From a virus: a DNA stretch of 20,439 nt. Under the pieces are notes generated by a model, which saw only the letters and a program-made list of their open reading frames with translations, searched no databases and was not told where the DNA came from. The DNA is taken from the IMG/VR virus record IMGVR_UViG_3300042507_001691, positions 1 to 20,439 of that record. One strand, 5' to 3'. Of this stretch, positions 1,646 to 14,559 are shown in pieces; within the stretch, counting starts at the first letter, position 1, and the number at the start of each line of letters is the position of its first letter. Position numbers and translations under genes: made by a program.

Positions 1646-1936
1646 TCAACCGATGCCGATGCGGCGGCCGAGTGCGTTGAGGGCCTCAGCCCGTTTTGAA
1701 CATCCGCAGGGGCGACCAATCGCCTTGCTGACACGCTCTTCGGTTATGCCAACGGCAGATAGCGTTGACTTCACCATGTCGCCAAGCCCCATCTTGGCCC
1801 GCGGGTAAGCACTGTGCGTCTCGTCCACGGTGATGTAGTCGCCATCTTCTGAGACAATGCACGCCCGTACTTGCTCTAGCGTTGCCCCTCGCTGGCGGCA
1901 TCGTTGCTCAAGGTGTTCGCGGTGGCACCGGATCAT
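1646..1936 (-). CDS. Conserved small Cys-containing phage protein
   Basis: Encodes 96 residues from an ATG at 1936 that overlaps the stop of the 931-residue gene as ATGA; a longer in-frame reading to 2023 is less likely because of this coupling. The N-terminal part holds RCHREHLEQRC followed by RACIVSEDGDYITVDETH. The C-terminal part has PCGCSKRAEALNALG, a CxC-plus-basic pattern that I recall at the ends of small phage tail-side proteins. Cysteines at the RC, AC and CGC positions could bind a metal or the virion protein encoded just before. It directly follows the Cys-rich tail protein. Function unknown. Confidence 0.7.
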   Translation of the reverse strand: MIRCHREHLEQRCRQRGATLEQVRACIVSEDGDYITVDETHSAYPRAKMGLGDMVKSTLSAVGITEERVSKAIGRPCGCSKRAEALNALGRRIGIG

Positions 1937-4728
1937 GGCAACGGGTTCTCGCAGGGTATATCGGCAATGACGTACTGGCCTGTCCAGCAACCATCGTTGC
2001 CGATCTCTGGCTCCCACAAACATCTCTGTTCTTGGTCAAAAGGAAAACACGCACATGCTGTCTTGCCCTTGTTTCCGCTTTCAGTGACTATTGCCGTCGG
2101 CTCGGGCGTCGTGGTGTAAACGGGGTCGCCGTTTTGGTCGAGGCCGACCAATATTGCCGCATCGCACTCGCCGCACATGAGTTGCCAAGAAACAAAGTCG
2201 CCATTTGCGTCATAAACGGCCGTGTACAGGATTGGCCCGCCGTTGTTCGCAAGAAAGTTTCCATCCGCATCAAGCCCCTGGCAGTCTCCTAGGAAAACAA
2301 GCCCAAGAGGGTCTACATATGCGGCAGGGTTTTCGCCTTCGCCAAGCGGCCAACCACTGTCGGGCGGATCAACGCACCGCTCAACACTCAGGTCACAGCA
2401 AGAACAAATCCGCTCACCCAAATCAAAATCGCCGCCCCACTCAACGATTGCCTGCCCGCTGTTCCCAGGCAGTAAAGGCGTCAGCGTGATAGATCGCGTC
2501 GAGTTTGAGAACGCAACGGCGTTCTCTCTGTCGGCCTGGAATACAAGAACCGGGGTCGAAGGGTCGTTTATGCTAGCCCCAAACCAGACTCGCAACCGCG
2601 GAAAGCAGACGCGAGGAAAGTCCAGTTCGCAACGGATTGGAAGTATCGAGAGAAAAGCAGGAAATGGTGTTTCCGGGCACTGATCTCTCAGGATAGTAGA
2701 CGCGTGGCGTTGCAGTATGTAGCCGCTTCCGGCACTGTCAACGACGGCGGTCATAGTGCCAAACGTGGCGCTATCAGGGTCATCATCAATGATGGCTCTG
2801 ATTGCAGCACCGGAGCCATTGCTAGGGGGCAGATTCTTGACTTCCACAGTCACGTCGGCCACATCAATAGAGTCGGTTTCTCTGTAGTAATAGCCTCCGT
2901 CTTCTACGGCTACTGTGCCGGCTTCTGAAGTAGTGCGGAAATAGCTACCGCCATCAATGACTGAAGCTTCGAACAACTGCCCTCTGTCGTTTGTGTACGC
3001 GACCACGCATGCCGCTCGGACCTGCGTGCTGCCGGATTGCACAGTGAATCTGACGGGCACTTCTCCCGAATAGCCAGAGCCGCCACTAAGTACGCTTACT
3101 GCCTCAATCGCAAGCGTCGGCGGCGTTGTTGAATCGTCTTGTCGCCAGTTGACCGCAAATGTGGCTCCTCCGTTGTGGCACGGTGTTGACGCCTGCACTT
3201 CTGGAGGAATCCGCTTGCGATACACACGCAGCGTCGCTGGACTTGCCTCCTTGTCGCTTGACGTGGCTGGCGTAACCAGCAGGCTTGCAAAATCGAGATA
3301 GCCGCTGCCGCCGTATGCGGTCACCCCAGCAATCTGCCACAGGGGCAACCCAAGAAAGGAGGCTTCGACCCACGAAACGACAAACGTGCCACCTTGCCCA
3401 AAGCCGCCGCTGATCGTAACTGTCGGCTCCACTCGACGGCGAACTGCCAACAAACTGCCGCCAGAAACACCCTGCACCTCTGCGATGCCAGACTCAAGAC
3501 CGTCATAGGTTGCAGGTATCACCGGCCGCAGGCGGCCAGGGCTGCCGAACGAAGATTGAACGCACAACTCGACGCTATCAATAAAGCTAGGGTTTGGGTT
3601 GCTTTCTGGGTTCTCGATCGCCCCCGTCTGAAGGGTAAGCGTCACGCCATTCAGTTCGGACGCGCACGTTTTTCGCTCTTCCCAAGCGGTGTGGCCGTCG
3701 CCACCGTCAGTCATCTCAAGCTGTGTCACATGCCCAAACGTCTCGCTTGCTGGGTCTTCGTCAACTGTGACAATAAAAGTTGGCGTGTCCAAAGGGTCGC
3801 CGGAAATGGGCCCGACTTTTGTTCCGGGTGACACATAGGGAGCCAGTGAAGGGTCTTCCTTAAAGTAACTGCCACCCGACACAACTTGCACCAACTGTGG
3901 AACGCCCTGCTTGTATGCACTGCCGCCAGATGTCATGGCGACGCCAGTGATAACCCCAGACGTGACTACAAGCGTTGCAACAGGGGCAGAGCTCAACACG
4001 TCTCCGTTGCCAGCCGTGAAAACCAGCCGCGAGCCGTTGGTGTAGCCATAGCCTCCATTGAGAATCGTGACGCCAGACACTGTCCACGTTTCACTGCCAA
4101 CGGCAGAACTTGCCTGCGCGTATTGAATCTGAAGCTGCGCGCCAGACCCGACTTTCGCGCCAGGCGTGCTGCATGAACATGGGTCAACGGTCACATACCA
4201 ATCAAGAGTTGGCCGTCCGCGAGCCACTCGCAATCGTGCGTTGGCGACGCTCCGACATGTCATGCCGTCGTCAAGAAGTACGATCATCTGGCTGTTGTGC
4301 GTGTAGCCGTAGCCATCTCCAGAAATGGAGATCGCACTCACCTTCCAAAATGGTATCCCGTCCCGGTCCTCGTCCTCGACCAGCGTGGCCTCGAACGTCG
4401 CACCGTTTCCGGTGTGATTGACTACTCTGCGTATCGTCGGCTCTGAGCGCCCGAGCAAGGCCCAGCCTGTGCCGCCGCCAGGAAGCCAGCGAATGCCGGA
4501 CGCTGGCCCCTCTGTCACCTTATCGGCATCAAGCAGAGTGCCGGGGTCGGTCGAAACAACGGTGCAGACTGCTGCATCGTTATCAAGCCAGTCATCGGAA
4601 ACAAAAAACTGCCGCCCTTCCCCAGACTGAATCACGTCGGCTAGGCCAGAGAATGTCACGCTCACAGTGGCCGGAAGCCGCTGGCAGAATTCTTGTGGGC
4701 AGGTAACGCAAAAGCCAAGCCGTGTCAT
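1933..4728 (-). CDS. Large repeat-containing, Cys-rich tail tip or fibre protein
   Basis: Encodes 931 residues from an ATG at 4728 that overlaps the preceding stop as ATGA; an upstream in-frame start at 4797 lies inside the previous gene and is rejected. Six units of about 40 residues end in a GGxGY-like turn: around residues 96-151, 189-238, 312-352, 434-488, 508-562 and 637-676. Each has an alternating hydrophobic pattern typical of beta strands. GGSYF also recurs (285-289, 593-597). The last 230 residues hold many cysteines (for example ICSCC 774-778, MCGEC 851-855, CAC 892-894) and DxNGDxV-like turns. There is no signal peptide. Size, beta repeats and place after the tape measure suggest a tail-tip, baseplate or receptor-binding protein. 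No named family is recognised, so the role is inferred from position and composition. Confidence 0.8.
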   Translation of the reverse strand: MTRLGFCVTCPQEFCQRLPATVSVTFSGLADVIQSGEGRQFFVSDDWLDNDAAVCTVVSTDPGTLLDADKVTEGPASGIRWLPGGGTGWALLGRSEPTIRRVVNHTGNGATFEATLVEDEDRDGIPFWKVSAISISGDGYGYTHNSQMIVLLDDGMTCRSVANARLRVARGRPTLDWYVTVDPCSCSTPGAKVGSGAQLQIQYAQASSAVGSETWTVSGVTILNGGYGYTNGSRLVFTAGNGDVLSSAPVATLVVTSGVITGVAMTSGGSAYKQGVPQLVQVVSGGSYFKEDPSLAPYVSPGTKVGPISGDPLDTPTFIVTVDEDPASETFGHVTQLEMTDGGDGHTAWEERKTCASELNGVTLTLQTGAIENPESNPNPSFIDSVELCVQSSFGSPGRLRPVIPATYDGLESGIAEVQGVSGGSLLAVRRRVEPTVTISGGFGQGGTFVVSWVEASFLGLPLWQIAGVTAYGGSGYLDFASLLVTPATSSDKEASPATLRVYRKRIPPEVQASTPCHNGGATFAVNWRQDDSTTPPTLAIEAVSVLSGGSGYSGEVPVRFTVQSGSTQVRAACVVAYTNDRGQLFEASVIDGGSYFRTTSEAGTVAVEDGGYYYRETDSIDVADVTVEVKNLPPSNGSGAAIRAIIDDDPDSATFGTMTAVVDSAGSGYILQRHASTILRDQCPETPFPAFLSILPIRCELDFPRVCFPRLRVWFGASINDPSTPVLVFQADRENAVAFSNSTRSITLTPLLPGNSGQAIVEWGGDFDLGERICSCCDLSVERCVDPPDSGWPLGEGENPAAYVDPLGLVFLGDCQGLDADGNFLANNGGPILYTAVYDANGDFVSWQLMCGECDAAILVGLDQNGDPVYTTTPEPTAIVTESGNKGKTACACFPFDQEQRCLWEPEIGNDGCWTGQYVIADIPCENPLP
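2701..4443 (-). repeat. Six diverged protein-level repeats with GGxGY turns
   Basis: Inside the 931-residue tail protein, six units share the plan [G-A-x-F-x-V-x-W] - acidic loop - [hydrophobic strand] - GGxGY - [hydrophobic strand]. Turns seen are GDGYGY, GGYGYT, GGDGHT, GGSGYL, GGSGYS and AGSGYI. Units three and six share a second form, DEDPASETFG and DDDPDSATFG, before the turn. DNA identity between units is low, so this is an old duplication kept at protein level. Confidence 0.65.
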
Positions 4729-5045
4729 GTGCAGTTCGCTGCGATCACATACCACGCCGTGCCTTCCTTGGCGACGGCAATTGGCGAGCCTCCGCAAGAT
4801 GCGGAGATAGAGCCAAACAGGTTGTATGCCGCAAGCGTTGCTGTGCTGTCACGCAGCGTGACGGTCTTGCTGGAGTTGATTGCCCAGCTGCCAGTGAACG
4901 TGCACACGCGGAACACCGGCGCAGATCCGCTGTCCCGCATGTCAACTGACCAGCCAGCTGCAACACGATCGCCAGCCTCAACGACCCGAACTGCCTTGCC
5001 GATACGCTCGGCCGCAGGCCGCGTAAACGTCACACGGTCGGCCAT
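4725..5045 (-). CDS. Small tail-side virion protein, unknown
   Basis: Encodes 106 residues from an ATG at 5045 with GAGG ten bases upstream, two bases after the preceding stop. It ends in an ATGA overlap with the 931-residue gene, so the two are probably translated together. The middle reads FTGSWAINSSKTVTLRDSTA, then LAAYNLFGSI: a beta-rich pattern that I recall in small virion-associated proteins of marine phages, without a known role. No signal peptide or membrane segment. Likely a tail-tip accessory protein or partner of the next gene product. Confidence 0.7.
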   Translation of the reverse strand: MADRVTFTRPAAERIGKAVRVVEAGDRVAAGWSVDMRDSGSAPVFRVCTFTGSWAINSSKTVTLRDSTATLAAYNLFGSISASCGGSPIAVAKEGTAWYVIAANCT

Positions 5046-6440: not shown

Positions 6441-8228
6441 CTAGTTGCCCACAATGTCCACAGGTGGTGCCTCGAGGGCTGTCAGTTTCTCGCGGATCTT
6501 TCGCAGCTCCGCCGTTTGTTTTTGCGCCTCAGCGACTGCTGGGTCTTCGCGGCTAAGTGCGGCCAACTGAGACGCACCTGAGCTGGTGCGAATGTCATCA
6601 AACCGCAGCGGCCCGGTGTCCGCCCGGCTCAACGTCCGTAGTCGCTCTTCGTCTATCGCACGCTCTTGCTCGGCCAGTTGCTGCTGCAGCTGCTGCCGCT
6701 CCTTCAGAGCGTTGATCGTCTGGTCAAACGCTGCCTTGGCATCCTCTCCTGCCCTCGCGGCGGACGTCTCGTTGAGGATGCCGCTTTCAACCTGCCGCTG
6801 GATTTCTCGGATCGCCTCTTGGTAGGCGACGGCCGCCGTGAAGCCTTCGTTGCCGAACTCCAGTGCAACGTCAACAGACAGGTTGGCTTGCCCCTGCAGG
6901 CGGTCGAGGATCTGCTGTACCGCCTGCTCCTCAGCCGCGAGCTCCTTGGTGGCCTCCTCAAGGGCTTTGGCAGCGGCGTCGCCGGCTTCCTTTACGTTCC
7001 CCTGGGCGGCTGCAAACGCCGCGGCCGTTGCCTCGGCGTCTTTGCGAATATCATCGAGCGACGCGCCCTGATTTTGCGCCGCTTGGTTCGATGCGTCGGC
7101 GTAGGAAAAGGCAGCCTCGGCTAACACGCCCAAGCCGGCAACCACCGCACCAATGACCGTGGACGCCAGCAGCCCACGAATGGCAATCTTGAGGACGTTT
7201 GTTGCGACCGCCGCCACGCCTGCCGACACAGAGAACGCACCAGATGCGGTAGCCGCAGCAGTGAAAGATGAAGCCAGCGTGGCGATGCCGGTGGAAATCG
7301 CCTGAGCGTTGATAAAGCCCAACGCAAAACCGATGGCTGGCAGCAGGTTGTTGGCAATGGGCTCAATGACCTGGGCCAGAATGCTGAACACGTTGCCCAG
7401 TGTTTCGATTGCCCCGGCTGCGGTGTTCGCCACGCTGGTCACGTCGATCTTGGAAATGAAATCCACGATCCCCTCGGCGGCCTCAGTCAGCACAGGGCTC
7501 AGCTCCGCCAGCACCTGGCCCGCCAGCTGCTGCACGGCCAGGCCAACCAACTGGAAGGCGTCGCCCACCGCCATCACTTGCTCAGCCTGGGCGGCCGTAA
7601 TGCCGCCGTTGAACTTCGCCAAAAACGTGGATGCGGTGTCGAGGTTGGTGCTCAGCTCTGCGAACACTGGCAGCAACTGGGCACCGGACCGCCCGAAGAT
7701 GGCGACCGCTGCGGCGGCCCGCTCGGTGGGATCGGCAATCTGCGTAATGGCGTTGGCCAGCGTTTGAAACTGCACGTCCGACGTGCGGCCCTCAAGATCG
7801 GTCACGGACAGCCCTAGCGTCTTCAGGGCGGCCTCGGCGGACTTGCTGCCCTTGCCTGCCTGCGAGATCGTCACCTGGGCACGCGTGAAAGCATTGGCCA
7901 ACGCCTCGCTGGAGACGGCCGCCAAGTCGGCGGCAATCTGCAGTTGGTCCAACTGCTGATAGGAAATCCCCAGCGACCGGCTCAGGTTGGCCGTCTGCTC
8001 GATGGCGCTGGCAGCACCGCTGGTGAAGTTGTTGAAGGTGTTGGCAACAGCCTGCACCGAGTTGACGAACACACGACCGATCTCGATGCCCTTGAGAGTC
8101 GCTACGTCGGTGGCCGTCTTCTTGGCGGCGTAGCCAAGCTTCTGCAACTCGACCGCAGCGGTGTTGATGCCGCCGGCCATCTGCGTGGCCGATGCGGAAA
8201 TCTGAAAGCCGAGTGCGACGGTTGCCAT
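6441..8228 (-). CDS. Phage tail tape measure protein
   Basis: Encodes 595 residues from an ATG at 8228, two bases after the preceding stop. Residues 75-190 carry the conserved tape measure core (SRSLGISYQQLDQLQIAA; later TLANAITQIADPTERAAAA, then FGRSG). Residues 293-372 are long Ala/Gly/Ile-rich hydrophobic segments, as expected for the part that may enter the host membrane. Residues 395-445 and 500-535 look like coiled coil, and the end (KQTAELRKIREKL, 570-582) fits a tape measure C-terminus. The protein sets tail length; at the usual 0.15 nm per residue this gives a tail near 90 nm. It follows two chaperone genes, the standard order. No peptidase or lysozyme insert is seen. Confidence 0.95.
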   Translation of the reverse strand: MATVALGFQISASATQMAGGINTAAVELQKLGYAAKKTATDVATLKGIEIGRVFVNSVQAVANTFNNFTSGAASAIEQTANLSRSLGISYQQLDQLQIAADLAAVSSEALANAFTRAQVTISQAGKGSKSAEAALKTLGLSVTDLEGRTSDVQFQTLANAITQIADPTERAAAAVAIFGRSGAQLLPVFAELSTNLDTASTFLAKFNGGITAAQAEQVMAVGDAFQLVGLAVQQLAGQVLAELSPVLTEAAEGIVDFISKIDVTSVANTAAGAIETLGNVFSILAQVIEPIANNLLPAIGFALGFINAQAISTGIATLASSFTAAATASGAFSVSAGVAAVATNVLKIAIRGLLASTVIGAVVAGLGVLAEAAFSYADASNQAAQNQGASLDDIRKDAEATAAAFAAAQGNVKEAGDAAAKALEEATKELAAEEQAVQQILDRLQGQANLSVDVALEFGNEGFTAAVAYQEAIREIQRQVESGILNETSAARAGEDAKAAFDQTINALKERQQLQQQLAEQERAIDEERLRTLSRADTGPLRFDDIRTSSGASQLAALSREDPAVAEAQKQTAELRKIREKLTALEAPPVDIVGN

Positions 8229-8230
8229 GG

Positions 8231-8545
8231 TTACTGCTGCCCAAGATCGCGTGCCATTTGTTTCAGCACTTCTGCGATCTGTGTTTCGTGTTGCGGTGCT
8301 TTCTTGTGCTTCGGGATGAAGTCTTCCGGCTCAATCTTTCTGCCTCGAGGCGTGTAAGGTGCGAGCATGGCGGCAGCCAGCGTCCCGGTCTGCTCCCAGT
8401 GCCCACCGATCGGCTCGTAGTACAGGTGGTAGGCCAGCCACCGCGTGAACTCCCTGCTATCCATCCGCCGGAACAACTCGCCCAGCGTCATTCCCAAGTG
8501 CCCGGCCAGCCGCATGGCGAACTGCAGCGACGGCCGGGCGTTCAT
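8231..8545 (-). CDS. Tail assembly chaperone, GpT/DUF4035-like
   Basis: Encodes 104 residues. The segment DSREFTRWLAYHLYYEPIGG (29-48) followed by HWEQTGTLAAAMLAPY (49-64) matches the pattern of GpT-like tail assembly proteins (WLAF...P.G...D...A.I). It lies directly before the tape measure gene, where the second half of the lambda G/GT pair sits. Its ATG overlaps the stop of the first chaperone gene as ATGA, with GGAGGAG about 11 bases upstream. It may be made alone by translational coupling or as a fusion by -1 frameshifting in the G5 run at 8547-8551. The C-terminal part is basic (PRGRKIEPEDFIPKHKK). Confidence 0.8.
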   Translation of the reverse strand: MNARPSLQFAMRLAGHLGMTLGELFRRMDSREFTRWLAYHLYYEPIGGHWEQTGTLAAAMLAPYTPRGRKIEPEDFIPKHKKAPQHETQIAEVLKQMARDLGQQ

Positions 8546-8904
8546 TCCCCCGCCAACTCCTCCACGTCAGACATTGACATTGCGTTGTGCTTCATGGCCC
8601 GCTTGAACAACCGGTCCACCACGGCCACGCTCTTGGTGGCCAGCTGCTCGACCTGGGCGTCAGTGAAGATCCGGCTGCCGTCCTTGTCGCACAGGCACCG
8701 AGCCAGAAACTTGCTGCGGAAGTTGGGCACGCCCTTCTCCTTGTTGGCGAGCCACTCGCACTCGTAGGCGTCCCGCTCGCCCACAGTCATCAGCCTGAGG
8801 TAGACCGTGCCGGCCTCGCCGTCCTTTTTCCACTCCGGCACCTTCACGGTCAGGATGTTCAGGTCGTCGGCCCCGATGATGTCGGCAATCGTGAGATCAG
8901 CCAT
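8542..8904 (-). CDS. Tail assembly chaperone, G-like
   Basis: Encodes 120 residues. The ATG at 8904 has a strong TAGGAG site five bases upstream, which overlaps the preceding stop; longer in-frame starts up to 9087 lie inside the previous gene and are rejected. ITVKVPEW-like N-terminus (LTVKVPEWKKDG), then VYLRLMTVGERDAYECEW and FLARCLCDKDGSRIFTDAQV: the plan of the phage tail assembly chaperone family, which keeps the tape measure soluble before tube assembly. Position between tube and tape measure genes agrees. It overlaps the next gene by 4 bases. Confidence 0.85.
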   Translation of the reverse strand: MADLTIADIIGADDLNILTVKVPEWKKDGEAGTVYLRLMTVGERDAYECEWLANKEKGVPNFRSKFLARCLCDKDGSRIFTDAQVEQLATKSVAVVDRLFKRAMKHNAMSMSDVEELAGE

Positions 8905-8912
8905 GGCGGCTC

Positions 8913-9233
8913 CTAGTTGTCGAGAATGCGAAGAGTGACCGTGTATTGCGTCACACCGTTCAACTGCGGCGCAACGGCAAACCCTTGATACACAGCCTTG
9001 CAAGTCAGGGTCGCGCCGCCGCCAGCGATTGCCAGATTCGCACGCGTGCCGTACTTCGCGGTGCTGACGTTTGCAACACCAAGGCAAGTAACCGTTACCT
9101 CACCTGGCTCGTCGGTGAAGTTGTTGGCACGCCCACGCGGCAAGCTGCCGCCGTAGTTCCACGCTAAAGACTGCACCTCGGTAAATGCCACGCTGTCAAA
9201 CGTGACCGAGATGCCGGTGCTGTAAGTCGCCAC
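8913..9233 (-). CDS. Second tail-tube-like protein
   Basis: Encodes 106 residues from a GTG at 9233 with a GGGGG stretch about eight bases upstream, 18 bases after the stop of the first tube-like gene. The protein is all-beta in appearance (SVTFDSVAFTEVQSLAWNYG; GEVTVTCLGVANVSTAKYG; YTVTLRILDN at the end). It shares with the preceding protein a short opening, an FT-V strand and a VT-LG region, so the two may be divergent paralogues of one tube fold. It could be a second tube subunit, a tail terminator or a decoration protein. No named family recognised. Confidence 0.7.
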   Translation of the reverse strand: MATYSTGISVTFDSVAFTEVQSLAWNYGGSLPRGRANNFTDEPGEVTVTCLGVANVSTAKYGTRANLAIAGGGATLTCKAVYQGFAVAPQLNGVTQYTVTLRILDN

Positions 9234-10857: not shown

Positions 10858-11174
10858 CAGGGAGTCTCCTGACAGATCAGCTCGTGCTCGCTGCGGTTGT
10901 TGTGCTCGAGCAGGCTGACGATCTCCAGCGTGCGGCCACGACACAGCAGCCGCATCTGCTGCGTCAGCCCGGCCACGTACCGTAGCCGCACGCGGTGCGT
11001 GATGCTCACCTCAAGCTGCCCGGCCCCAAGGGCCTCGCGGGCAGTCACGCCTTCCACGCTGGCCCAGCGATCCGTGAACGTCGACCAGGCCAGCGTGGTC
11101 TCGCCCAGAGCGTTGCGGCTCTCGGTGGCCTGCTGGATCGTCACCCGCTCGCGGAGCCTGCCTGGGTCTATCAT
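10857..11174 (-). CDS. Head-tail adaptor (SPP1 gp16-like)
   Basis: Encodes 105 residues from an ATG at 11174 that overlaps the preceding stop as ATGA. The opening MIDPGRLRERVTIQQATESR, followed by a Trp-Ser stretch (LAWSTFTDRWASVEG), ITHRVRLRYVAGL and a closing RGRTLEIVSLLEHN, is the standard plan of the phage head-tail joining family. The family plugs the connector after DNA packaging and forms the surface on which the tail docks. Length and gene order both fit. Confidence 0.93.
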   Translation of the reverse strand: MIDPGRLRERVTIQQATESRNALGETTLAWSTFTDRWASVEGVTAREALGAGQLEVSITHRVRLRYVAGLTQQMRLLCRGRTLEIVSLLEHNNRSEHELICQETP

Positions 11175-11578
11175 GTGCCGTACAGAACCAGTGTGTAGGT
11201 GCCAGTGCCTGTTAACGTGCGGACCCGGTAACCGGTTGTGCTCGAGCGAAAAGACTGCGGTATGTCGTTAACGCAGATGTTTCCGCTGCTACGGCCAGCG
11301 CTGATCTCGGGCGATGCAGAAACGATAAACAGCCCCTCACCGCCAACGCACTGAAACGCTGCCCGCTGGGCCGACGTGAATGCGACTACGTTGCCGTCAG
11401 CCCCGCGATACGACGAGATGTTGAGCGTCTGCTGGGCGGTGCCAACGGTGCCAGAAGCCACGGCCACGACGCCCATGGCGTACTCGCTTGATCCCTCAAG
11501 CGACACGACCTTGAGCGACGTAGTGCCATCGGTGTCGTGAAACAGCACGTCCACGTTCATGCGGCCGTTAAGAGCCAT
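11171..11578 (-). CDS. Unknown virion-type protein between connector and adaptor
   Basis: Encodes 135 residues from an ATG at 11578 that shares one base with the connector stop (TAATG), and ends in an ATGA overlap with the adaptor gene. It looks beta-rich (GTAQQTLNISSYRGADGNVV, then AFTSAQRAAFQCVGGEGLFI) with a C-terminal strand TGTGTYTLVLYG. Most HK97-type phages have nothing, or a short protein, at this place. A capsid decoration or connector-associated protein is possible. No family is recognised. Confidence 0.65.
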   Translation of the reverse strand: MALNGRMNVDVLFHDTDGTTSLKVVSLEGSSEYAMGVVAVASGTVGTAQQTLNISSYRGADGNVVAFTSAQRAAFQCVGGEGLFIVSASPEISAGRSSGNICVNDIPQSFRSSTTGYRVRTLTGTGTYTLVLYGT

Positions 11579-12189
11579 TAGCGGTAACTCCCCCAGCGGT
11601 GAGCGTCGAGCAAGGATTTCACGCCAAACTCAATCTCTTTGGAAATCGAGCCCGTCAGTACGGCGCTGCGCTGTTCGTACAGGCTGCCGACAATCATGAG
11701 CACGGCCGACCGGATGGCCGCCGGCACGCTTGAGCCGCTGGCCCCGTAGCCGGCCCACCAGGTAACGCTGATGGCGTTGTCATCCCGCAGGTGCGGCGGC
11801 CACGTCTGGCCGTAAAGCGTTTTGACAGCCCCCGGCGTACTGGCACGGTCGACGCGGTAACTGGCCGTTGAGTAGGTGGCCGTGGTGCCGTTCTCATACG
11901 TGAACGTCAGAGCCACCGCTGTGGCCGTGCCACTGGAAACCATCGGCGGCCTTGGCAGCTCGATGTCGTGCGTGCCGTCAGGCGGAAACGCATCGAACCG
12001 CATGACCCACTGCGTATCCACCAGCGTGCGGTCTAGGTACTGCTCGCACCACTCACGGGCCGCCGTGATCAGGGTGCCGATGTACGCGTCGTCATCAGAC
12101 ACGTCCACCCGCAGGTGGGCCTTGGCCTCGGCCAGCGTGACTGGTTCAACGGCCGGCGCTGTCTGGCGTGTCAGGCTTCGGTACTGCAC
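11578..12189 (-). CDS. Head-tail connector, HK97 gp6-like
   Basis: Encodes 203 residues from a GTG at 12189 with GAGG five to seven bases upstream; the start lies 44 bases inside the preceding gene. The region VTLAEAKAHLRVDVSDDDAY (17-36), then IGTLITAAREWCEQYLDRTL, is the hallmark of the gp6-like connector family. The tail end (AAIRSAVLMIVGSLYEQR, about residues 158-175) is also typical. The protein forms a ring under the portal. Order with the adaptor and gp10-like genes fits. Confidence 0.9.
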   Translation of the reverse strand: MQYRSLTRQTAPAVEPVTLAEAKAHLRVDVSDDDAYIGTLITAAREWCEQYLDRTLVDTQWVMRFDAFPPDGTHDIELPRPPMVSSGTATAVALTFTYENGTTATYSTASYRVDRASTPGAVKTLYGQTWPPHLRDDNAISVTWWAGYGASGSSVPAAIRSAVLMIVGSLYEQRSAVLTGSISKEIEFGVKSLLDAHRWGSYR

Positions 12190-12385
12190 GGCGTCCTCGT
12201 TTCCTCGGGGTGGCGTCGGCCGTCTCGGCCTGGTGCTCGACGGCTGCCGTCTCGATCAGTTGTTGCTGGCGGTCCTCGACGGCGACGCCTTGCGCCAGCA
12301 GCTGCGTGGCGAGCCCGCCCGCCAACTCAACAACCTGCCCAGTGCGGTAGCCTCGCCATGCACGTAGAAACCTCAGTGTCTTCAT
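12146..12385 (-). CDS. Small head-region protein, unknown
   Basis: Encodes 79 residues from an ATG at 12385, which overlaps the glycosyltransferase stop as ATGA. The N-terminal half (MKTLRFLRAWRGYRTGQVVE, then LAGGLATQLLAQGVA) matches the plan of short phage proteins of the type FLR.yrG..G.v.eL....A..Lv..GvA that stand near capsid genes. The C-terminal part is rich in Pro, Arg, Asp and Ala and probably unstructured. It overlaps the connector gene by 44 bases, which is a long overlap for this operon. Role unknown. Confidence 0.65.
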   Translation of the reverse strand: MKTLRFLRAWRGYRTGQVVELAGGLATQLLAQGVAVEDRQQQLIETAAVEHQAETADATPRKRGRRAVPKPDTPDSAGR

Positions 12386-13116
12386 TCAGCGGCACTCCAT
12401 GCAGATTCCGGGGGCTTTTGCGTCTGGGTGTACTGGTTGGCCCACTGAAACACCGGCTGGCTCAGATCCTTGCCGGGCCACGTCACGACGTACTCGCCGT
12501 GGCCGATGCAGACCCGTGGCGTGACGTAGACCTTGTTGCCGCTTTCTCGCCAGTTCGACCAGAAATAAATATCAGGGTCGCGGCGGCCATCGTTCCATGA
12601 GCCGTCAGGGCTTGGCTTGCACCAGAACCATGGTTTCTTAGCCCGCTTCAGTGCAGCGGTCGACAGGATCGTGCAGCCAAAGTGTGCCGAGTCAACTTCT
12701 TGGACTGGGGCCTGGAACCATTCCCGAGGCACGGACGTGCTGCCGCCTTCGGGCGGATTGTCTAGGCAGCCCTTTAACGTCAGCATCGGGCGGCCGTCTT
12801 CCCTCTTCGTCTGCAACGGGGCCAAGGCGTCGCACTGGAACGTGAGAGCCAGGGCAAATAGGTGCTCAATGTCGGCCTGAGAAAAGAAGCTGTCGTAATC
12901 GATCAGCAGCAGGTACTCGCACTTGTCGATGAACTGCTCAAAGACCCGCGTGTTGACCTGATCCCAGAACACGCCGGTGCCCATCGTCGGGCGGATGCCC
13001 AACGGCATCAGAGCCTGAGCCCACGCGAAGTGATTCGCCGTGAACGAAAGCCGAGGCATCGACAGACACGCCTCAACCCTGATATCTACCTCGCTTCTAC
13101 CCACCCGAACGATCAT
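12382..13116 (-). CDS. GT-A-like glycosyltransferase within the head module
   Basis: Encodes 244 residues from an ATG at 13116 with GAGG six bases upstream. Residues 67-76 (CEYLLLIDYDSFF, Asp73 and Asp75) form a strand ending in a DxD-like metal and nucleotide-sugar site. SAHFGCTILS (143-152) and DPDIYFWSNW (180-189) resemble acceptor-site regions, and IGHGE (204-208) could give the late metal-binding His of the fold. No membrane segment. It starts right after the capsid terminator and is coupled to the small gene after it. Phage glycosyltransferases that decorate capsid or tail proteins are known in actinobacterial phages, and this position suggests a virion target. The N-terminal nucleotide-binding part is short, so a remote or divergent family is likely. 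Confidence 0.7.
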   Translation of the reverse strand: MIVRVGRSEVDIRVEACLSMPRLSFTANHFAWAQALMPLGIRPTMGTGVFWDQVNTRVFEQFIDKCEYLLLIDYDSFFSQADIEHLFALALTFQCDALAPLQTKREDGRPMLTLKGCLDNPPEGGSTSVPREWFQAPVQEVDSAHFGCTILSTAALKRAKKPWFWCKPSPDGSWNDGRRDPDIYFWSNWRESGNKVYVTPRVCIGHGEYVVTWPGKDLSQPVFQWANQYTQTQKPPESAWSAAE

Positions 13117-13127
13117 GCGTGCCTCGC

Positions 13128-13167
13128 AAAAAGAGAGCGGGCGGCCCTTATCCAGAGCCGCCCGCTC
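13128..13167 (-). terminator. Intrinsic terminator after major capsid gene
   Basis: Reading the minus strand, a perfect 11-base GC-rich stem (GAGCGGGCGGC / GCCGCCCGCTC, arms at 13157-13167 and 13135-13145) with an 11-base loop is followed by TCTTTTT (13134-13128). It lies 30 bases past the capsid stop and 12 bases before the glycosyltransferase start. On the plus strand the stem has no T run, so it acts in one direction. It should lower, not abolish, transcription of the head-tail and tail genes compared with the capsid gene. Confidence 0.88.
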
Positions 13168-13196: not shown

Positions 13197-14516
13197 TCAC
13201 GCACCGACCAGGCCGATGATCGGCCCGGCGACCGTGGAGGTGCCGAGGTTGGCGTGCGTGATCGCCACGCGAGCCACGGCCCGGATCACCGTCTGGTCGG
13301 ACAGGAAGTTGACCTGATCGCTGGACGCGATCTCGATCGCCTGGCGGATGCCGTAGTAGCTCGAGTTCGCCATGTTCCCGTACAGGGCCATGATCGCACC
13401 CGTCGAGTCCGCACCGCTGGGAAGCCGGTCGGTGAGAACCACCGGGCTGCCCAAGAAGGTCGGACCCATGCCAGCCGCCAAGCCGACCGACCCGCCCTGG
13501 GCAAGGTCGAGATTCTGCATGCAGGTGGCGAAGAAGAACGGCGAGCAGAACCACTTGGCACCGGCCCGGCTGTGCTGCGGAACCGCAGCCATCATCGCCA
13601 GCAGGTTGGCCTTGGTCACCTCGTCAGGCGTGTCACCGGCAGCCGTCACAAGCGACGCCGCGTAGGTGGCACCCGAAGAGGCCAGCAGGCCACCCGTGTG
13701 GCTCGTCACAAGTCCGGCCACGGCGGGGGCGTTGCTGGGGTTCCCGCTGAACGCAGCCGACTCGACGGCGTTGCTCAGCGTCAGGGCCAGCTCGGCGGCG
13801 ATCCAGTCAGCGATGGACACGATCGAGTCCTGCAGGAGCTCGGACGCGATGACCACCGCACCGGTCACCTTCTTCGCCGTCAGCGTGACCTGATTGCTGG
13901 TCGGGTCGCTGGCAGTGATCGCGGCGTTCTCGTCAATCCAGTACGCGGTCGCACCGGCCGTCCGACGCGGGAACAGCAGCACGTCGCTCGGCATCACCAC
14001 GTTGGTGGCGTTCTGAGCAAAGGCCGAATACTGATCGACCAGGCGGATGACGGTGGAAGACAGGACGTCGGGCACGAAGGCCGCACCGGTCGTGGAACCG
14101 GTCGAACCCTGGGCACGGGCCTCGACGCCATGATCCTGGCACCACCGGCGGGCCTCGGCGTCGCCGCTCTTGGCCTTGAACCACATGCCGACCGAGTAGG
14201 CATCCTTGGCGTTCTCAAACGCACGGAGCCGACCCGAGAACGGGACCGCCTCGACGCGGGCCTTGTCGCTCCGCTCCTCGGTCACCTCGGGAGCCGGGGT
14301 GCAGCGATCCACCACCGACCGCAGGCTCTTGGCCGACTCGACCACCGACTTTTCAAAGTCGATCTTCTTGGCGAGCTTGGCGGCGTCGGCCGTCAGCGTC
14401 TCGAGCTCCAGATCACGCTCGGCAATCTTGTCGGCGTCGCCTTCGATGGCACGCACGGCGTCGATCCGGTTGGCGAGGGTAACGGCCTCGTCCTGCAGCT
14501 TCTTGAGGTTGTCCAT
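13197..14516 (-). CDS. Major capsid protein, HK97 fold
   Basis: Encodes 439 residues from an ATG at 14516, with GGAG eleven bases upstream; a GTG at 14558 adds 14 residues but lacks a ribosome site. Residues 1-70 form a charged helix or coiled coil (LKKLQDEAVTLANRIDAV), the scaffold-like delta domain removed by the protease. A cut somewhere around residues 85-100 (RVEAVPFSGRLRAF) is likely, by analogy with HK97. From residue 139 the family core begins (TGSTTGAAFVPDVLSSTVIR), with YWIDENAAITASDPT and VASELLQDS further on. It follows the protease gene as usual. A terminator follows the gene, fitting its need for high expression. Confidence 0.95.
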   Translation of the reverse strand: MDNLKKLQDEAVTLANRIDAVRAIEGDADKIAERDLELETLTADAAKLAKKIDFEKSVVESAKSLRSVVDRCTPAPEVTEERSDKARVEAVPFSGRLRAFENAKDAYSVGMWFKAKSGDAEARRWCQDHGVEARAQGSTGSTTGAAFVPDVLSSTVIRLVDQYSAFAQNATNVVMPSDVLLFPRRTAGATAYWIDENAAITASDPTSNQVTLTAKKVTGAVVIASELLQDSIVSIADWIAAELALTLSNAVESAAFSGNPSNAPAVAGLVTSHTGGLLASSGATYAASLVTAAGDTPDEVTKANLLAMMAAVPQHSRAGAKWFCSPFFFATCMQNLDLAQGGSVGLAAGMGPTFLGSPVVLTDRLPSGADSTGAIMALYGNMANSSYYGIRQAIEIASSDQVNFLSDQTVIRAVARVAITHANLGTSTVAGPIIGLVGA

Positions 14517-14559
14517 GTTCGGTGAGACTCCTGCGGCGGTATTGCCGATGGAGTTCACG

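Follow-up and report, generated by a model that had tools for sequence, protein, structure and literature searches.

A predicted GT-A glycosyltransferase gene fixed next to the major capsid gene of an uncultured phage lineage

The IMG/VR virus record IMGVR_UViG_3300042507_001691 comprises 20,439 bases, and this entire stretch of DNA is referred to here as the window. Its head genes are arranged on the minus strand, where the genes for the small and large terminase subunits are followed by those for the portal, the protease and the major head protein, and subsequently by a gene coding for a putative GT-A-type glycosyltransferase. Further downstream lie a small gene encoding 79 amino acids, a head-tail adaptor gene, a gene encoding 135 amino acids, the head closure gene and the tail genes. 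The putative glycosyltransferase gene (12382-13116, minus strand) specifies 244 residues between an ATG at 13116 and a TGA at 12384-12382. The original prediction had described a glycosyltransferase-like reading frame of this length at the same coordinates without assigning a strand; the plus-strand frame in this interval is interrupted by stops.

The gene had also been claimed to lie between capsid and connector genes and to be coupled to the small gene behind it, and the neighbouring genes bear out both points. Immediately upstream is the gene for the HK97-type major capsid (head) protein (13197-14558, minus strand; PHROG_10 major head protein, 1.6e-46), the product of which is a candidate acceptor for the enzyme, and the downstream head-tail adaptor gene (11578-12189, minus strand) matches PHROG_442 (4.4e-28). 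The stop codon of the glycosyltransferase gene overlaps the start codon of the 79-residue gene (12146-12385, minus strand) in the sequence ATGA; relatives preserve the overlap, in the form of either ATGA or GTGA. The 135-residue gene between the adaptor and head closure genes (11171-11578, minus strand) matches no PHROG family, and in many relatives, where the adaptor gene directly precedes the head closure gene, it was not found; it looks like an accessory insertion. Elsewhere in the window, a reading frame of 954 residues with a TTG start (1933-4797, minus strand) contains repeated glycine- and tyrosine-rich turns and probably encodes a tail or fibre protein.

The capsid and glycosyltransferase genes are separated by a strong intrinsic terminator (13135-13167, minus strand), which consists of a stem of 14 base pairs followed by TCTTTTT. 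Judged by the presence of a hairpin and a T-run, the terminator recurs in 119 of 137 relatives, and its arm sequences vary between clades yet remain complementary. This conservation suggests that the enzyme is made at a far lower level than the capsid protein, which would be fitting for a catalyst.

Viral contigs contain at least 599 stretches that encode a close relative of the glycosyltransferase. The capsid gene is located upstream in all relatives with enough flanking sequence (95/95), and the small gene is located downstream in 123 of 128, counts in which a few contigs that were fetched twice are entered twice. To avoid selection on the glycosyltransferase gene itself, an independent set of loci was fetched via the head-tail adaptor gene. 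Every locus of this set that reaches the capsid gene carries the glycosyltransferase gene in between (60/60), which answers the proposal to look for the gene at the same site in related phages. In one of the 60 (L236, 2865-3712) the gene is split by a frameshift, reflecting either natural decay or an assembly error. The order of capsid gene, enzyme gene and small gene is not due to chance, and the enzyme gene is a fixed part of a large, uncultured and largely metagenomic phage lineage. Relative to the window copy, dN/dS amounts to approximately 0.08-0.16 for all clades, the exception being one near-identical pair (0.01), and these ratios indicate that the gene is under purifying selection. Two pattern scans of 84,980 bacterial and archaeal species genomes retrieved no relative, and hence neither a prophage nor a link to a host. 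Among named phages, a tblastn search of INPHARED returned a single match (E 0.08), a podovirus gene at an equivalent place, and the same search with a sister sequence returned no match.

The translation contains the sequence elements that the original prediction had pointed out, and at the positions given there: Asp73 and Asp75 as well as a late IGHGE (residues 204-208). Expressed as codon positions on the minus strand, the DxD motif Asp73-Tyr74-Asp75 spans 12892-12900 at the end of a predicted strand (residues 68-73), and IGHGE, which according to the alignment includes an invariant C-terminal histidine (His206), spans 12493-12507. A further aspartate, Asp182 (12571-12573, minus strand), occupies the position of the xED catalytic base at the N-terminus of a predicted helix (residues 181-191). 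Asp73, Asp75, Gly147, Asp182, Gly193, His206 and Gly207 are unchanged in 142/142 close copies, which represent 92 distinct sequences, and the same seven columns are invariant in an alignment with 14 distant PHROG_1574-type proteins of 17-26% identity. The conserved active-site positions of GT-A enzymes are the DxD motif, the G-loop, the xED aspartate and the C-terminal histidine (Taujale et al., PMC7185993). The invariant residues of the window protein match this set, with Asp73 and Asp75 as the DxD pair, Gly147 as the G-loop glycine, Asp182 as the xED aspartate and His206 as the C-terminal histidine. The glutamate of xED is replaced in the window lineage, which features DPD, DDD, DSD or DAD at this site, and several distant members contain GED.

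The structure of the protein was predicted with AlphaFold2 on an alignment of 33 sequences including distant relatives. The resulting model (pLDDT 85.3, pTM 0.86) has a Rossmann-like α/β/α core of the GT-A type, the fold that the original prediction had named as its structural check. Asp73 closes a strand, Asp182 opens a helix and His206 follows the next strand, an arrangement as in GT-A enzymes. The best match of the model in the PDB is A197 of Sulfolobus turreted icosahedral virus (STIV; 2c0n, E 2.4e-8, TM-score 0.55/0.69). Further matches are mostly GT-A proteins and comprise the collagen galactosyltransferase COLGALT1, mimivirus R699, the glycosyltransferase domain of LH3, GalNAc-Ts and TarP, and the matches among viral predicted structures are phage proteins of the GT-A type. 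In a control prediction with close relatives only, no usable model was obtained (pLDDT 32), and the model therefore depends on the distant homologues being aligned correctly. Given the invariance of the motifs and the PHROG match, a correct alignment is likely but not certain. At the sequence level, the window protein matches no Pfam family at E values up to 10, no NCBIfam family and nothing in the PDB.

PHROG_1574, annotated as of unknown function, is the sole profile family that is matched. The match of the window protein is partial (E 1.5e-4, residues 139-213), that of a sister sequence is more extensive (8.1e-8, residues 65-215 of L065), and each of 21/21 long records of the lineage contains exactly one PHROG_1574 match. 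A profile comparison of the lineage with the distant set by hhalign gave a modest score (probability 61%, E 8e-5). An HMM built solely from the 14 distant PHROG_1574-type proteins was searched against 16,434 open frames together with shuffled and reversed decoys; it recovered the glycosyltransferase gene in 126 of the 142 loci (E 3e-4 to 0.15; window copy 0.018) and matched neither another frame nor a decoy. These profile comparisons place the window protein within PHROG_1574 as a distant member. The lineage shares all the invariant motif residues with the family and yet forms a divergent branch, which is 17-26% identical, extends N-terminally beyond the profile and lacks the GDCHVDDARN motif. 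Distant members of the family produce partial matches to Anp1 or Glycos_transf_2, and one deposited relative is annotated as Mnn9-like, features shared with GT62 (Anp1/Mnn9) and GT2, whereas the window protein itself is without a Pfam match. The predicted fold, the invariant GT-A residues and the membership in a phage family some of whose proteins score to glycosyltransferase models all point to a glycosyltransferase, as had been proposed.

Relatives of the gene are found in similar positions in other phages. In the uncultured P22-like phage MW202691 a relative is located between the genes for a P22-type coat protein and a tail accessory factor, and in the P22-like MW202573, likewise uncultured, it follows the P22-type coat gene. 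To the best of its knowledge, the original prediction had regarded a glycosylated capsid or tail as undescribed in such phages. No paper reporting one was found, but these two deposited records already annotate the correspondingly placed relatives as “polysaccharide biosynthesis” and, in MW202573, as A197-like. Among 17 distant viral contigs with scanned neighbourhoods, 13 have a major head gene within approximately 3.5 kb of the relative, the other four having been scanned in part. The adjoining head genes belong to three families (PHROG_283, PHROG_334 and PHROG_10), and the association with head genes may be overstated, because the search for distant relatives started from a member located in a head module. 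Other relatives adjoin tail collar genes or further sugar genes, in cyanophage ACG-2014f and pelagiphage HTVC027P, or genes for a sliding clamp, RusA or recombination (phiM19, DLP_6, LS06-2018-MD06 and ctz7E20). In view of these varied gene neighbourhoods, the superfamily probably serves more than one target. Tentatively, PHROG_1574 may be viewed as a widespread group of phage glycosyltransferases, which were repeatedly acquired beside the gene for the major capsid protein in phages whose capsids belong to different families (HK97-type PHROG_10, P22-type PHROG_283 and PHROG_334); capsid glycosylation might then be a common, hitherto overlooked trait of tailed phages in aquatic habitats, and an obligatory one in the window lineage.

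Several additional features were observed around the relatives. In the P22-like phages, the protein continues beyond its glycosyltransferase domain with a domain resembling methyltransferases (Pfam matches weak; 7902-9179 in MW202691, locus L082), which perhaps serves a methylated sugar. Genes with a radical SAM domain are present near two PHROG_1574 relatives (L167, 2251-3315; L171, 2456-3610), and in L167 this gene is located between the capsid gene and the glycosyltransferase gene. A second glycosyltransferase (PF00535) is encoded outside the head module in the L178 and L185 records (G005:10713-11000 and G007:27621-28100).

The position of the gene plausibly favours a glycosylated capsid or tail, as the original prediction had suggested. 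We consider it probable that the gene product is a soluble, metal-dependent GT-A glycosyltransferase, which modifies a virion protein, probably that of the capsid. The enzyme would be produced together with the head-assembly proteins, with the terminator holding enzyme and connectors well under capsid levels. The nucleotide-sugar donor would probably be drawn from the host pool, the site showing no further gene of a sugar pathway. Asp73, Asp75 and His206 would hold the metal and the nucleotide-sugar, Asp182 would act as the base, provided the enzyme inverts, and a single sugar would be attached, in the cytoplasm, to a virion protein. The most likely acceptor is the capsid protein, followed by a connector or tail protein, and the modification might benefit the phage by masking the particle, by contributing to receptor binding or by adding stability.

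The α- and β-glucosyltransferases of phage T4 glycosylate modified DNA bases and thereby protect the phage DNA against restriction. A corresponding role of the window enzyme is the main rival to virion modification, since some relatives are linked to replication; for those beside sliding clamp, RusA and recombination genes, DNA is indeed the likelier target. In the window lineage, however, the gene belongs to the head operon, away from replication genes. A thymidylate-synthase-family gene (PF00303) was found in 0/21 and a cytosine-C5 methylase in only 2/21 of the long records, which may be fragments. A search of the lineage records for Tet_JBP, run without a positive control on the same possibly fragmentary records, gave no match. 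DNA as the target of the window enzyme is rated unlikely.

Even less probable is that the protein represents a GT-A-derived pseudoenzyme, or a structural or chaperone component of head assembly. The presence of the gene at the head site in every lineage member tested and the replaced xED glutamate would both be compatible with such a role, but the metal-binding aspartate pair, the G-loop glycine, the base aspartate and the C-terminal histidine are all invariant, as expected of an active enzyme, and on account of these residues a structural gene misread as an enzyme is rated low. Least probable is a modification of host surface glycans for receptor alteration or superinfection exclusion, since, although temperate phages alter the serotype of their hosts with glycosyltransferases (PMC12619734), the window protein has no membrane segment, the site harbours no GtrA/GtrC-like partners, the gene would be expressed with the late head genes, and the two pattern scans of prokaryotic genomes retrieved no related prophage gene.

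Modification of a virion protein by a viral glycosyltransferase has two parallels. STIV A197 is a putative glycosyltransferase, for which the major coat protein of STIV itself has been proposed as the target of glycosylation, and a D151E change in A197 delays replication (PMC10551542, PMC4187194). Like the window protein, A197 is a small, single-domain viral GT-A protein with a DxD motif, a base aspartate carried by a helix and conserved residues at the metal site; in contrast, it originates from an archaeal virus and shares just 12% identity with the window protein. The mycobacteriophage enzymes Che8 gp108-110 and Corndog gp38 are reported to glycosylate capsid and tail-tube protein (PMC12363180). 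Like these phage-encoded glycosyltransferases, the window enzyme is proposed here to act on a virion protein. Homology to Che8 gp108-110 was not detectable by HMM comparison (E 0.3 or worse), and the Che8 proteins are encoded by three tandem genes at the genome end, as opposed to the single gene inside the head operon of the window.

Glycosylation of the virion is known in few phages and in a few other viruses. To the original prediction, the analysis adds the fixation of the gene in this lineage, its membership in PHROG_1574 and the recurrence of that family beside the capsid genes of different head families. A PHROG family of unknown function thereby gains a testable activity, and the gene points to glycosylated particles in a large lineage of uncultured phages, of which metagenomes have yielded hundreds of members. 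If glycosylation is a core trait of these phages, capsid sugars would bear on adsorption, on particle stability and on recognition by hosts or grazers.
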